Both the position numbers and the translations under genes were made by a program. Positions 7,555 through 17,542 of a stretch of DNA of 33,593 nucleotides are shown here, piece by piece. The notes under the pieces were generated by a model. That model did not search any database. It was not told the DNA's origin and worked only from the letters and a program-made list of their open reading frames with translations. This DNA is from Betaproteobacteria bacterium (GTDB lineage Bacteria; Pseudomonadota; Gammaproteobacteria; Burkholderiales; SG8-41): assembly GCA_016202615.1 (NCBI GenBank), contig JACQOI010000286.1, positions 1 to 33,593 of the forward strand, read 5' to 3'. Every line of letters begins with the position of its first letter. Position 1 is the stretch's first letter.

Positions 7555-7567
7555 GCGTCTCTCTCCC

Positions 7568-7638
7568 TAGCAGCCTGTCGGACTTAGCATTCGACAGGCT
7601 GCTAAGGAGTTTGTCCGACCCAAGTCCGACAAACTCCT
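7568..7638. repeat. double-hairpin repeat element (copy A)
   Basis: Two inverted repeats lie back to back. TAGCAGCCTGTCG (7568-7580) pairs perfectly with 7592-7604 around an 11-base loop. AGGAGTTTGTC (7605-7615) pairs with 7628-7638, with three more pairs inside after a C-C mismatch. The two stems are themselves related (AG[GC]AGnnTGTC). A shortened copy occurs at 14656-14692. The layout resembles terminal inverted repeats of a non-autonomous transposable element, but no transposase is visible. It lies in the 164-base gap between the SDR and the kinase. The remaining gap (7639-7718) shows no gene. Confidence 0.75.
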
Positions 7639-11361: not shown

Positions 11362-12156
11362 TCAGTGACCCTGGAAGCGCGGCTTGCGCTTCTCCTGGAA
11401 AGCCATGAGGCCTTCGGTCGCGTCTGCCGAGTTGGTGGCGTAGCGATGAACGTATTCGAGCTCCATGCGCAGTCCAGTGGTGAGGTCTTTGCGAAGTCCC
11501 TGGTTGGCGAGGTACTTCATGCCTGCAAGCCCCTGCGGGCTTAGAGACGAAAGGCGCTCCAGGAACTGTTTGGTGAAGCCTTCCAGCTGAACGTCGGGCA
11601 CAAGCTTTGATACAAGACCGATGCGTTCGGCTTCCGTGGCATCAACGATCTCGCCCGTGAGCATGAGGTAGCGTGCGCGCATTGGACCGACAGTGCGAGG
11701 CAGCCGCTGCGAGCCACCGGCACCCGGCAACTGACCGAAATTCACATGCGCATCGCCGATCTTGGCCGAGGTGGCCGCGATGACCACGTCGCAGGCCAAA
11801 AGCAACTCCAGGCCTCCGGCCACGCAATAGCCCTCGACCACTGCCACGTAAATCTTGCGCGACGCCTCGATTAACTCGAGCAGCCGGTGAAAGTCCTCCA
11901 GGAATGCCTGAAAGTCGTCAGGCCGTCGGTACAAGTCGACATAGTCCTTGAGATCGCCGCCCGCCGAAAAATTCTTGCCCGCACCGCTTACCACCACAAC
12001 CTGTGCAACTGCATCGTCTTCGACGCGCTTCACGATATCGACTAATTGCCGGACGGTTGACCAATCGAGCGGATTTCGCTTCTGCGGCCGATTCAACGTG
12101 ATACGAACGACCTGTTGGCCGAATTCTGCGATCACCGAGTGTTCTGCCATGCGCAT
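11362..12156 (-). CDS. enoyl-CoA hydratase/isomerase, first gene of the operon
   Basis: This crotonase of about 264 residues shows RITLNRPQKRNPLDW, GAGKNFSAGGDLKDY (oxyanion hole), EGYCVAGGLELLLACDVVIA and FGQLPGAGGSQRLPRTVG in order. The track start at 12201 is a TTG that would lie almost on the predicted transcription start. The ATG at 12156 (MRMAEHSV) or 12150 gives a normal family length and a leader of about 50 bases, so I use 12156, although no strong ribosome site is visible. It is the first gene after the regulator and is predicted to be transcribed from the promoter at 12211-12238. Confidence 0.92.
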   Translation of the reverse strand: MRMAEHSVIAEFGQQVVRITLNRPQKRNPLDWSTVRQLVDIVKRVEDDAVAQVVVVSGAGKNFSAGGDLKDYVDLYRRPDDFQAFLEDFHRLLELIEASRKIYVAVVEGYCVAGGLELLLACDVVIAATSAKIGDAHVNFGQLPGAGGSQRLPRTVGPMRARYLMLTGEIVDATEAERIGLVSKLVPDVQLEGFTKQFLERLSSLSPQGLAGMKYLANQGLRKDLTTGLRMELEYVHRYATNSADATEGLMAFQEKRKPRFQGH

Positions 12157-12224: not shown

Positions 12225-12238
12225 CCGTAGTCCGACAA
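12211..12238 (-). promoter_or_regulatory. predicted promoter of the acyl-CoA operon
   Basis: On the minus strand TTGTCG (12238-12233) and AATAAT (12216-12211) are 16 bases apart. The -10 matches five of six consensus positions and the -35 matches four. The -35 lies inside the FadR-like operator at 12228-12238, so bound repressor would block RNA polymerase. Transcription would start near 12204 and run through the catabolic cluster. Confidence 0.5.
12228..12238. promoter_or_regulatory. FadR-subfamily GntR operator candidate (operon)
   Basis: TAGTCCGACAA fits the FadR-subfamily consensus TNGTNNNACNA at every fixed position. It shares GTCCGACAA with the site upstream of the regulator at 13144-13156. 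Its position over the operon -35 fits repression by the neighbouring GntR protein. Confidence 0.55.
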
Positions 12239-12304: not shown

Positions 12305-13039
12305 CTACACAGCGCTGTCCATCGGACGGTTCATGTCGATTCCCGTACGCTCATAGCCGCGCTTCAAGTCGGCCATGTGGCGCTCCATCCAGGCGCGCAC
12401 GCCTGCCTCATCATGTTTGCGCACCAATGCGACGATCCTTTTATGGGCATCGAGAATTCGCTTTTGCGTTTTCAATCGCGTAAGGATTATTTTCCCGGCC
12501 GGGTAGAACAGGAGGCTGATCGGTTCCCTGGCGAGGCTCAGTGCTCGATTGTCGGCGTACTCCGCGAGCAGGTTATGAAATTCGATGTCGAGTGACACCA
12601 CGCTGTCGATATCGTTGAGCCTGGCTTTCATCTCCTTAAGATTGTTTTCGAGCGCGCGGATGCCCCCTTCGTCTATGCGTTGGGCGGCGAATATTGCGGT
12701 AATGGTCTCCAGTGCCGCTGCCGCTTCCGATAACTCGCGGAAGGTGACTTGATGCATCACAAGCGCTCTGGACGCGCGGGAGGCCAGTTCCGTGTAATGC
12801 GGGATCGCAACCTTGAGCCGCTTTCCATCGCGTCTTACTAGTCCCGCATGCTCTAGCCCACGGAGACCCTCCCGTACGGTCGAACGATTGACACCTAGCT
12901 GTGCCGCCAGCTCCGTCTCGGGCGGAAGCCAGTCACCCAGAGAGAGTCGACCGGATCTAATCATCTTTTCCACTGAATCGGAGACCTGTCGGTAAGCAGG
13001 GGCCAGGTCAAGTTTTTCAAAAACAGTTTTAGAAGTCAT
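12305..13039 (-). CDS. GntR family regulator, FadR/FCD subfamily
   Basis: This 244-residue regulator has an N-terminal winged helix (LPPETELAAQLGVNRSTVREGLRGLEHAGLVRR, near residues 38-70) and a C-terminal all-helical FCD effector domain. Potential metal ligands of that domain are visible as Asp151, His155 (DIEFH), His199 (AHKRI) and His221 (MERHM), so the effector is likely a carboxylate or CoA-type metabolite bound at a metal. ATG 13039 starts the HTH domain at the usual distance. The gene lies at the head of the catabolic operon on the same strand, and operator-like sites flank it. The likely role is local repression relieved by a pathway intermediate. Confidence 0.93.
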   Translation of the reverse strand: MTSKTVFEKLDLAPAYRQVSDSVEKMIRSGRLSLGDWLPPETELAAQLGVNRSTVREGLRGLEHAGLVRRDGKRLKVAIPHYTELASRASRALVMHQVTFRELSEAAAALETITAIFAAQRIDEGGIRALENNLKEMKARLNDIDSVVSLDIEFHNLLAEYADNRALSLAREPISLLFYPAGKIILTRLKTQKRILDAHKRIVALVRKHDEAGVRAWMERHMADLKRGYERTGIDMNRPMDSAV

Positions 13040-13132: not shown

Positions 13133-13161
13133 AGTATAATCGGATTGTCCGACAATATAAA
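13133..13161 (-). promoter_or_regulatory. predicted promoter of the GntR regulator
   Basis: On the minus strand TTTATA (13161-13156) and TATACT (13138-13133) are separated by 17 bases, with five of six -10 matches. The palindromic operator at 13144-13156 fills the spacer, a classical autorepression layout. On the plus strand a perfect TATAAT lies at 13135-13140 without a good -35. It could belong to a divergent promoter for the tctC gene at 13507. Confidence 0.5.
13144..13156. promoter_or_regulatory. FadR-subfamily GntR operator candidate (regulator)
   Basis: ATTGTCCGACAAT is a perfect palindrome with 6-base arms around a central C. Its core TTGTCCGACAA fits TNGTNNNACNA fully. It lies in the spacer of the predicted regulator promoter. 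The remaining gap to the tctC start (13162-13506) shows no recognisable gene; the track ORFs there have no family likeness. Confidence 0.6.
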
Positions 13162-13506: not shown

Positions 13507-14478
13507 ATGCGTGTAAAGAAATGGGGCAGGAGCGCCATTTTATTGGTGTGGCTCGCTCTTGTTTTCGGCGTGGCATCCACATGGGGAGCGAGTTTCCCGG
13601 AGCGCCCCGTACGTTTCCTCGTTGGCTTCAACCCTGGAGGAGGAACAGATCAGGTGGCTCGGATAATTGCCCCGAAATTGTCGGAAAGATGGGCCCAATC
13701 TGTCATTGTCGAGAATCGGCCGGGTGCTGATGGCGATATTGCCTTAGGAATCTTGATGAGCTCGGAGCCGGATGGATATACTCTTGTAATGGCTACGAAT
13801 GCTTTTACGATTACGCCCAATCTACGCAAGCTCAATTACGACCCGATAAAAAGCTTTTCGCCTATCATTTTGGTAGCGTCGGTACCTGGTGTCCTAGCGG
13901 TCCGAGGATCCCTCCCGGTTTCGTCCCTCAAAGAATTGATCGCATTGGCTAAGTCCAAGCCTGGGCAGTTGAACTTCGCTTCCAGTGGAACGGGCACGAC
14001 CCCATATTTGCAGATGGCGCTTCTCATGAAGCTGACCGGAATCGATATGGTCCATATACCCTACAAGGGCAATGTGGGTCCTCCACTGCTGAGCGGCGAG
14101 GTTGATATGGGTTTCTCCGGGGTGCCGGCTCTTCTCGCGCTGGTGAAGGCAGGCAGGATCAAAGCGCTTGCGGTTTCAACCACAGAGCGGGCAGCGCAGT
14201 TACCGGAGGTGCCTACAGTCGCCGAAGCAGCCAATCTCCCGGGCTACGAGGCTTTTACCTGGTATGGTGTATTGGGGCGAGTCGGCACTCCCAAAGAAAT
14301 CATCAATAAGTTGAATGCTGATATATCTGAAGTGATGCGTGACCCGACTGCTCGTCAACGCATATCCAACTCGGGCTTTCTGATTGTAGCCGGCAGTCCC
14401 GAAAAATTCAGCGCTACCATAAAGAGCGACGTTGCGAGGTGGTCAGCATTGCTAAAAACGATCGACATTGTCAAGTAG
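13507..14478 (+). CDS. TctC/Bug tripartite tricarboxylate transporter receptor
   Basis: This is a 323-residue periplasmic solute-binding protein. The N-terminal signal peptide has positive charges (MRVKKWGR), a hydrophobic core (SAILLVWLALVFGVA) and probable cleavage before ASFPERP. The family marks follow: PVRFLVGFNPGGGTDQVAR, VIVENRPGADG, PDGYTL, MVHIPYKGN and EVPTVAEAANLPGYEAFTWYG. ATG 13507 follows CAGGAGGATTCA; the track start at 13450 is upstream of it. The ligand is normally a carboxylate held by the two lobes. It heads a plus-strand group with MmgE/PrpD and a hydratase. By eye it is more AT-rich than the minus-strand cluster. Confidence 0.94.
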   Translation: MRVKKWGRSAILLVWLALVFGVASTWGASFPERPVRFLVGFNPGGGTDQVARIIAPKLSERWAQSVIVENRPGADGDIALGILMSSEPDGYTLVMATNAFTITPNLRKLNYDPIKSFSPIILVASVPGVLAVRGSLPVSSLKELIALAKSKPGQLNFASSGTGTTPYLQMALLMKLTGIDMVHIPYKGNVGPPLLSGEVDMGFSGVPALLALVKAGRIKALAVSTTERAAQLPEVPTVAEAANLPGYEAFTWYGVLGRVGTPKEIINKLNADISEVMRDPTARQRISNSGFLIVAGSPEKFSATIKSDVARWSALLKTIDIVK

Positions 14479-14655
14479 GGGATTGTTTTACCGCATGTCC
14501 GGTGAAGAACATCCTGACGCCAGGGTGGTGTGCATTGCGCGACCCTGGATGGGGACGACCAATGATAGAACGCTGGATCGATTCCAGTAATTCCTGAAAG
14601 CTAAGAGCGGTTGTTGATCTGGGTTACGTTCAAATTCGGCGGGCGGTTTTGCTGT

Positions 14656-14692
14656 TAGCAGCCTGTCGAATGCTTAGTCCGACAAACTCCTA
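14656..14692. repeat. short copy B of the hairpin repeat, with operator-like core
   Basis: TAGCAGCCTGTCGAATGCTTAG is the reverse complement of the centre and right arm of copy A's first hairpin with one mismatch. TCCGACAAACTCCT equals the right end of copy A. The element folds as one imperfect hairpin and ends 11 bases before the MmgE/PrpD start. It contains TAGTCCGACAA (14675-14685), identical to the operator candidate at 12228-12238, so it may either carry a regulator site or mimic one by chance. The rest of the 14479-14703 gap shows only a weak CCAGGGT/ACCCTGG inverted repeat at 14520-14548. Confidence 0.7.
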
Positions 14693-14703
14693 GGGACAAT
14701 CGA

Positions 14704-16068
14704 ATGGATAAGACGACCGAAAGACTGGTCGATTACGCCATGGAGGCGAGGCACGAGGCACTATCGGCCGAAACGAGACACGAATGCAAGCGCCGTCTCG
14801 TCGACACCTATGCATGTGCCATGGGCGCGTACGATGATTCCGTATGCCGGATCGCTCGGGAGATTGCAGAGCAATACTCCGGCAAGTCGGGTGCCAGCGT
14901 GTGGGGCAGCGGCATCAAGACTGTTCCCGAGATGGCCGCGTTCGCGAATGGGGTAATGGTGCGTTTCATGGATATCAGCGACACCTATCAAGGGAAAGGA
15001 CGTGGGCATCCGAGCGATGTTATCTCCGGGATACTCGCGATCGGCGAAGCCGTGCATGCAGACGGACCGTCCGTCATCAACGCAATTACGGTTGCCTATG
15101 ACGTCTACTGCAGCTTCGAGGATGCTATCGACATTAACAGCAAAGGATGGGACCACGCTGTGTATGGCGTGGTCGCCGGTGCGCTTGGAGCCGGGAAGGT
15201 CCTCGGCCTGTCGTGCGAACAAATGGCCCACGCCGTAGCTCTCGCGGTGGCGCCCAACATGGCGCTGATAGTGAGCCGGCATGGGGATCTTTCGAACTGG
15301 AAAGGATGTGCTGGCGCCAACGCCTCGCGCAACTCTGTGTTTGCGGCCATGCTCGCGCACCGCGGCTTGACCGGGCCGGGCGCCGCTTTCGAGGGGAAAG
15401 GCGGTTTGTGGGAGGCCCTCGGTGGAGGTTTTGCTTGGCCTCTGCCGGACCCGAACGCTCCACGGATGATTACGCGGACGCATCTCAAGAGTCTGCCGAT
15501 CTGTTATCACGGACAGTCAGCGGTGCTCGCCGCGTTCGAATTGCGTCGGCGTGTGCCCATTGACGACATCGGCGAAATCGAGGTTGACACCTATGGTGTC
15601 GCCATCCAGATGATGGCGGGAGATCCTAACCGCTGGGCGCCTACCACACATGAAACCGCCGACCATAGCCTGCCCTATGTGGTGTCGAGGGCGTTGCTCG
15701 ATGGCAAAATCGAGTCGGCATCATTTACACACGAGCGTTTAACCGATCCTACAGTCTTGAAGATGATGCGCAAGGTGAAGGTTCGCGAAAGCAGGGCTCT
15801 CTCCGAACGGTATCCGCAAGGCGCGCCCGCAAGACTAACCGTCCGCCTCAACTCTGGCGAGGAGTTAGTGCATGAAATCGAGCACCCGCTAGGACACGCG
15901 GGGAATCCGATGAACGACGCGCAGTTAGAGGAGAAGTTTCGCCGCATGTTTGGTGCTGTGGGCAGGTCGGATCGATGTGAGCAGGCACTGCGGGTGTTAT
16001 GGAACTTTGACAAGGCCGCAGATGTGAGTCTCGACGTGTTCGAGCCGTTGGCTGCGGTTCATCGATAG
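14704..16068 (+). CDS. MmgE/PrpD family protein
   Basis: This 454-residue protein belongs to the MmgE/PrpD family (2-methylcitrate dehydratase and relatives such as immune-responsive gene 1). The all-helical N-terminal domain is visible as LSAETRHECKRRLVDTYACAMGAY, then ANGVMVRFMDISDTY, GHPSDVISGILAIGEA and AVYGVVAGALGAGKVLGLS. SLPICYHGQSAVLAAFELR and the mixed alpha/beta lid domain (EIEVDTYGVA) follow. The family dehydrates or isomerises branched di- and tricarboxylic acids, which fits its place behind a tctC carboxylate receptor. True PrpD is unlikely, because no prpB/prpC genes are near. ATG 14704 follows TAGGGA. Confidence 0.92.
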   Translation: MDKTTERLVDYAMEARHEALSAETRHECKRRLVDTYACAMGAYDDSVCRIAREIAEQYSGKSGASVWGSGIKTVPEMAAFANGVMVRFMDISDTYQGKGRGHPSDVISGILAIGEAVHADGPSVINAITVAYDVYCSFEDAIDINSKGWDHAVYGVVAGALGAGKVLGLSCEQMAHAVALAVAPNMALIVSRHGDLSNWKGCAGANASRNSVFAAMLAHRGLTGPGAAFEGKGGLWEALGGGFAWPLPDPNAPRMITRTHLKSLPICYHGQSAVLAAFELRRRVPIDDIGEIEVDTYGVAIQMMAGDPNRWAPTTHETADHSLPYVVSRALLDGKIESASFTHERLTDPTVLKMMRKVKVRESRALSERYPQGAPARLTVRLNSGEELVHEIEHPLGHAGNPMNDAQLEEKFRRMFGAVGRSDRCEQALRVLWNFDKAADVSLDVFEPLAAVHR

Positions 16069-16663: not shown

Positions 16664-16717
16664 TTCCGTGAAAGTGTGCCCTCGCGCTTGTCAGTAATCA
16701 TAAATGGTGAGGTTTGA

Positions 16718-17542
16718 ATGTCTGACAATCTTTCAGAAGGTATCCAGCTAGCTGGACCGCTCCTGTTCAATGTCAATTGCGGTATTGCTACCGTTACGTT
16801 GCACGATCCCCGAACGAGAAATTCGCTAAGCGAAAGAGTTATTGACCTAATTGTTGAATCAGTAGAACGCGTTAACGCGGACGTGGACGTGAAATGCATG
16901 GTTATTACGGGTTCCGGGAGTACTTTTTGTTCCGGCGGAAACATGAAGGAAATGTTTACCCAAGGCTCGTTTACCCAAGGCTCGTCCGTTGCAATTCGCA
17001 AGGCGATGATGGGTTACCAACGCATCGTCCGCGCCATACAAAGTCTGGAAGTGCCTTCCATTGCCGCCATAAACGGGCCCGCCGTAGGTGGTGGCTTTGA
17101 CCTTGCTCTGGCGTGCGATATGAGGTTGGCCTCAGAGAACGCGAAGCTAATACAAAGATTTCTTTCGTTAGGAGTAATTTCTGCTGATGGCGGGTGGTGG
17201 CTACTGCCGAGGATCGTTGGACTTGCGAGAGCATATGAAATCGCGCTGCAAGACAAGCCGATTAATGCTGAAAATGCGCTAAAACTTGGATTGGTTTCCG
17301 CCGTTTTTGGTGTCGAGCAATTCATGCCGAAGACGATTGAGTTTGCTCAGGAAATCTCCAGACATCCTCCCCATTCAATAAGGCTGGCTAAGCGGTTAAT
17401 TCAACAGTCGTCCCGGTGCGACCTTGACGCAAGCCTGGAACTGGCCGCGTCAATGCAAGCTGACCTTTATCGTACTGAAGATCAACGAGAAGCTGTAGCG
17501 GCGTTTGTTGAAAAGCGAAGTGGAAATTATAAGGGCCGATAA
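16718..17542 (+). CDS. enoyl-CoA hydratase/isomerase family protein
   Basis: This is a 274-residue crotonase. It contains TVTLHDPRTRNSLSE, GSGSTFCSGGNMKEM (first oxyanion-hole strand), NGPAVGGGFDLALACDMRLA and LGVISADGGWWLLPRIVG. The last segment has Asp-Gly-Gly as in the hydratase at 2591-3370, so the two may share a reaction type. A five-codon tandem duplication (FTQGS twice) lies near residue 80-89, in the variable loop after the first oxyanion strand. GGTGAGGT lies upstream of ATG 16718. By eye the codon usage is AT-richer than in the minus-strand cluster, suggesting a different origin. It completes the tctC-MmgE group. Confidence 0.93.
   Translation: MSDNLSEGIQLAGPLLFNVNCGIATVTLHDPRTRNSLSERVIDLIVESVERVNADVDVKCMVITGSGSTFCSGGNMKEMFTQGSFTQGSSVAIRKAMMGYQRIVRAIQSLEVPSIAAINGPAVGGGFDLALACDMRLASENAKLIQRFLSLGVISADGGWWLLPRIVGLARAYEIALQDKPINAENALKLGLVSAVFGVEQFMPKTIEFAQEISRHPPHSIRLAKRLIQQSSRCDLDASLELAASMQADLYRTEDQREAVAAFVEKRSGNYKGR
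16955..16984 (+). repeat. in-frame 15-bp tandem duplication
   Basis: TTTACCCAAGGCTCG occurs twice with no gap and no mismatch, adding five codons to the hydratase gene. Perfect identity suggests a recent slippage or duplication event. Confidence 0.95.

Follow-up and report, generated by a model that had tools for sequence, protein, structure and literature searches.

The locus and its predicted operators

The window, i.e. the whole stretch of 33,593 nt analysed here, carries a minus-strand catabolic operon, a regulator gene and a plus-strand gene group. The operon begins with an enoyl-CoA hydratase gene (11362–12152, minus strand; Pfam ECH_1), the start of which was set at the ATG at 12152, with the reading frame open to 12201. 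The regulator, encoded at 12305–13039 on the minus strand, combines an N-terminal GntR winged helix-turn-helix (Pfam GntR, 3.2e-17) with a C-terminal FCD domain (Pfam FCD, 2.4e-19), which is the arrangement of the FadR subfamily of GntR regulators. In the plus-strand group, the first clear gene encodes a TctC-type solute-binding protein (13508–14478, plus strand; Pfam TctC, 3e-63), and an MmgE/PrpD-family protein is encoded at 14704–16068 on the same strand (Pfam MmgE_PrpD_N, 3e-69), downstream of a truncated repeat copy referred to below as copy B.

Between the regulator gene and the plus-strand group, and upstream of that group, lies the perfect palindrome ATTGTCCGACAAT (13144–13156), which is the top-scoring site of the window (21.8 bits) with an operator matrix built solely from the operators of homologous regulators. 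A promoter predicted for the regulator gene (TTTATA-17-TATACT) has this palindrome in its spacer, and the palindrome fits the FadR-subfamily operator consensus TNGTNNNACNA of Rigali 2002, as quoted in PMC2230225. Palindromes of the form TTGTCSGACAA occur three times in the genome, and the one at 13144 is the only one seen adjoining a regulator gene. A second site, TAGTCCGACAA (12228–12238, minus strand; 12.2 bits), lies upstream of the enoyl-CoA hydratase operon and overlaps its predicted −35 box (TTGTCG at 12238–12233; −10 AATAAT). A reading of the sequence alone, without database searches (hereafter the sequence-only reading), had already taken this site for the operator of the operon, and comparison with other genomes bears this out, as the site belongs to an operator family common to the upstream regions of most regulator homologues. 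The exact sequence TGTCNGACA was found within 200 nt upstream of the regulator's own gene in five of nine homologous regulators, with around 0.003 occurrences expected per locus, and one-letter variants of it were present in two further homologues of the nine. In the closest homologue (L072, 60 % identity), a stretch with CTGTCGGACAG separates the regulator gene from an enoyl-CoA hydratase/thiolase operon. A palindrome of the TNGTNNNACNA type is thus found upstream of the regulator's own gene and is kept in homologues. TGTCNGACA would be the core operator sequence for a FadR-type (GntR/FCD) repressor, which probably controls its own gene through the 13144 site and the enoyl-CoA hydratase operon through the 12228 site, and perhaps also the divergent TctC–MmgE/PrpD group.

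Of note, the second-best match to the operator matrix in the window (15.3 bits) is AATGTCTGACAAT at 16717–16729, overlapping the start codon of an enoyl-CoA hydratase-like gene at 16718.

A miniature element with hairpin ends in high copy number

The sequence-only reading had described a mobile-looking repeat present in two copies, the shorter at 14656–14692. The pair is real, i.e. an inverted pair of 42 nt with 90 % identity (near 7564–7605 for copy A and 14655–14696 for copy B), but 14656–14692 is only one end of copy B, which blastn extends to 14603–14693. Copy A (7567–7638, plus strand) is internally deleted, with the two terminal hairpins of the element, H1 and H2, standing back to back, each 100 % identical to the respective end of the full-length copy at locus L027 (blastn), and it folds far better than shuffled sequences (z −8.1). 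Copy B (minus strand), in the opposite orientation to copy A, is a truncated 91-nt fragment of the roughly 212-nt element, with 87–90 % identity to the full copies at L027 and L044 (blastn). It retains the H1 end and the interior and lacks the H2 half; the outermost arm of its H1 hairpin resembles the H2 arm in the alignment, and its fold is not better than that of many shuffled sequences (z −1.3). Copy B would accordingly be a truncated relic inserted into the gap of 225 nt that precedes the MmgE/PrpD gene. Neither the repeat nor a palindrome resembling the operator was present upstream of three paralogues of this gene and two homologues (57–65 % identity), which are non-syntenic and so provide no true empty site.

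The sequence-only reading was also right that the repeat looks mobile. In the draft genome (4.23 Mb) the arm GTCCGACAAACTCC has 188 exact occurrences, and 301 when at most one mismatch is allowed; the reversed pattern yields 0 and 2, respectively. These whole-genome counts are of arms, the number of elements being lower, while positions and contexts were taken from a sample of 60 loci. Judging from the collected pairs of ends, the full element measures around 200–212 nt and carries one hairpin at each end, in the order H1 (CTAGCAGCCTGTCGGACTTA...AGGCTGCTA), an interior with subterminal GCAAAACCG / CGGTTTTGC, and H2 (AGGAGTTTGTCGG...CCGACAAACTCCTAG). The ends are TIR-like, reading CTAG[C/G]AG[CC/TT]TGTCGGACTTA, with CTAG/CYRG borders; CTAG itself was found on the left in 41 and on the right in 35 of 53 elements. 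Deletion derivatives of about 75, 114, 150 and 160 nt were also identified. As a short, non-coding repeat with terminal inverted repeats and a high copy number, the element has the features of a miniature inverted-repeat transposable element (MITE). Rfam returned nothing relevant on four element-bearing loci, the plasmids, phages and viral contigs searched contained no match, and neither the element nor its core strings were found in the literature searched.

Example loci are L027, L033, L044, L054 and L110 in the same genome and L178 and L180 in relatives; across the bacterial family the distribution is patchy, with many internal deletion derivatives. Several copies end within around 30 nt of a start codon (L007:1540–1600 and 2660–2710, L018, L020, and 14690–14704 in the window), the terminal CTAG touching the ribosome-binding region, and in other cases (L016, L019, L023, L039, L043, L054 and L058) the outer CTCCTAG apparently provides the stop codon of the adjacent gene as predicted by a simple gene caller.

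Regarding mobilization, truncated IS1182-type transposase genes in two relatives (L187 and L188; called by NCBIfam IS1182 match) have within about 50–100 nt downstream the sequence CTAGCAGCCTGTCGGACT, which is the H1 end of the element and lacks its hairpin partner at both loci. These C-terminal remnants (L187:1404–1975 and L188:2325–2744) are candidates for the parent insertion sequence (IS); no intact parent was found, the match being of a single end beside the two truncated transposases. The element is probably mobilized by an IS1182-family transposase, and TGTCGGACTTA / TAAGTCCGACA at its ends would be part of a transposon terminus probably recognized by this enzyme. IS1272 of Staphylococcus aureus belongs to the same family. 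It is reported to replace stem-loop targets without target-site duplication (PMC5678879), a mode of insertion that would suit the mosaic of hairpins seen here. Two other sources were considered and rejected. None of the Y1_Tnp loci inspected (10 in this genome and 30 in relatives, covering the genome itself and seven relatives) had the repeat within about 1.5 kb, speaking against a REPIN/RAYT system, and the genes between closely spaced repeats in the sampled pairs were ordinary ones (TctC, acetate kinase, protein kinase) and not a parent IS.

Origin of the shared 11-mer

The 11-base identity between the 12228 operator and the short repeat copy, on which the sequence-only reading was built, is exact: TAGTCCGACAA occurs on the plus strand at 12228–12238 and, within copy B, at 14675–14685, i.e. 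18 nt ahead of the start codon of the MmgE/PrpD gene, and at no third position in the window. Only 0.016 recurrences of this 11-mer would be expected in the window, and in this respect the match is not random. GTCCGACAA is fixed within the repeat, and therefore only the first two letters of the 11-mer are free to vary. In the whole genome TAGTCCGACAA is found six times, once at 12228 and five times in repeat copies.

Most arms read AAGTCC, with AA preceding GTCC in 55 of 78 sampled arms, and in the majority arm AAGTCCGACAA the operator's first T is missing. The TAGTCC form is limited to five copies and has arisen by different small changes, i.e. a deletion (C64), GGAGCCTAG (C116 and C148) and an A-to-T change (C307 and copy B). 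In copy B, the 11-mer would have become identical to the 12228 operator through this single A-to-T substitution, which lies in the loop of the hairpin and turns GCTAAGTCC into GCTTAGTCC. The genes near the other four TAGTCC copies are unrelated (among them Fur, peptidase U32, NAPRTase, an FAD protein and an FAA hydrolase). In addition, the dyad of the repeat is the hairpin AGGAGTTTGTCGG-loop-CCGACAAACTCCT, with the loop as its symmetry centre. The repeat and operator palindromes are out of register, because the 11-mer spans the hairpin loop and one arm and is not an operator dyad.

Repeat and regulator are doubly dissociated across genomes. The arm is present in 20 of 74 genomes of the family, several of them with tens to more than 100 copies, and a regulator homologue at 1e-40 is found among these 74 only in the present genome. 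Seven genomes with homologous regulators contained 0–2 arms at one mismatch, which is the level of the reversed-pattern control. Nor do the repeats favour promoters: of the sampled elements, the 59 that have a gene on either side lie in 31 tandem, 21 divergent and 7 convergent gaps, approximate counts obtained with a simple gene caller, and the corresponding shares of intergenic length are 52 : 37 : 11 % (chi-square p = 0.97). Repeat positions thus track intergenic length at this approximate resolution. The suggestion that the repeat spreads regulator sites is not supported by these comparisons, and genome-wide abundance without a link to promoters, one half of the evidence that had been named against it, is what was found.

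The best explanation, and in our judgement a quite probable one, is a coincidence in which two unrelated sequences, one the operator of a FadR-type regulator and the other the end of a transposon, share GTCCGAC; this chance overlap had been offered as the alternative by the sequence-only reading and fits the data best. Two observations count against it. With the operator matrix, copy B scores 14.6 bits, the third-best value in the window and more than the 12228 site reaches, so that by its score the sequence fits the operator model; and copy B is located beside the regulator, so close to the start of a catabolic gene that an operator or roadblock could act there. Going by the scores from this matrix, which was derived from homologues only, weak binding of the regulator to copy B, and to some other arms, might occur.

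One alternative is a single exaptation, in which copy B arrived as a mobile element, underwent the A-to-T change by chance and then became a working secondary operator for the MmgE/PrpD gene, the repeat family as a whole not being a regulator carrier. Besides the independent matrix score and the position next to the regulator and the start codon, the fit of TAGTCCGACAA to the FadR-subfamily consensus TNGTNNNACNA, in the form quoted in PMC2230225, would agree with such a history. Against it, a simple consensus scan detected no promoter-like site in 14478–14704, and 9 of 92 sampled repeat arms score as high as or higher than the 12228 operator, so that such scores arise without any regulon. Moreover, copy B is not needed for co-regulation of the plus-strand group because the stronger 13144 palindrome already lies upstream of it, and the proposal that copy B brings this group into the regulon is not supported. 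On balance, we regard exaptation of copy B as unlikely, although it is the best placed of the alternatives.

An effect at the RNA level, with copy B acting as a 5′-leader hairpin or RNase site in a TctC–MmgE/PrpD transcript and the operator match being irrelevant, appears more doubtful still: intact copies such as copy A fold strongly and several copies lie close to start codons, but copy B has lost its matching outer arm, and many of its shuffled versions fold equally well. Finally, that the element disseminates the operator as a functional part, comparable to Correia elements with their IHF sites, is very improbable: GTCCGACAA is indeed part of the consensus arm and arms number in the hundreds, but the double dissociation from the regulator, the missing T of the majority arm, the lack of promoter bias and the unrelated genes beside the other TAGTCC copies all speak against it.

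With coincidence as the preferred reading, this regulator most likely does not act through copy B. More generally, an operator-like match within a repeat can be tested, and dismissed, by computation, here by asking whether repeat and regulator travel together, by reading the repeat consensus and by assessing the promoter preference of the copies. Should copy B be bound, it would neatly illustrate how a single base change can turn the end of a transposon into an operator.

Comparison with known systems

The regulator resembles the FadR-subfamily GntR/FCD repressors in its GntR and FCD domains, and TNGTNNNACNA, the consensus cited in PMC2230225, is matched fully or nearly so by the palindrome at 13144 and by those preceding most homologues. 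It differs in that its closest homologue has CTGTCGGACAG. The element shares with bacterial MITEs (PMC10969869) its short, non-coding nature, the hairpin-forming inverted ends, a high copy number, a mostly intergenic location and internal deletions, but shows no clean target-site duplication beyond CTAG/CYRG. The likeness to the IS1182 family, represented by IS1272 (PMC5678879), consists of the H1 end CTAGCAGCCTGTCGGACT beside the truncated transposases at L187 and L188, whereas stem-loop replacement was reported for IS1272 itself and no intact parent IS was found for the element here. REP/REPIN sequences with RAYT transposases (PMC3116915, PMC3733652) likewise form abundant intergenic palindromes in mosaics; unlike the GTAG-tagged REPs, the present ends are CTAG-bordered, TIR-like hairpins, and the Y1 loci examined had no repeat nearby. 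Lastly, Correia elements with IHF sites (PMC10969869) are similar in being mobile repeats able to place a protein-binding site beside a gene. In those elements the IHF site is a functional part, as has been shown, whereas the operator likeness described here is probably an occasional by-product.
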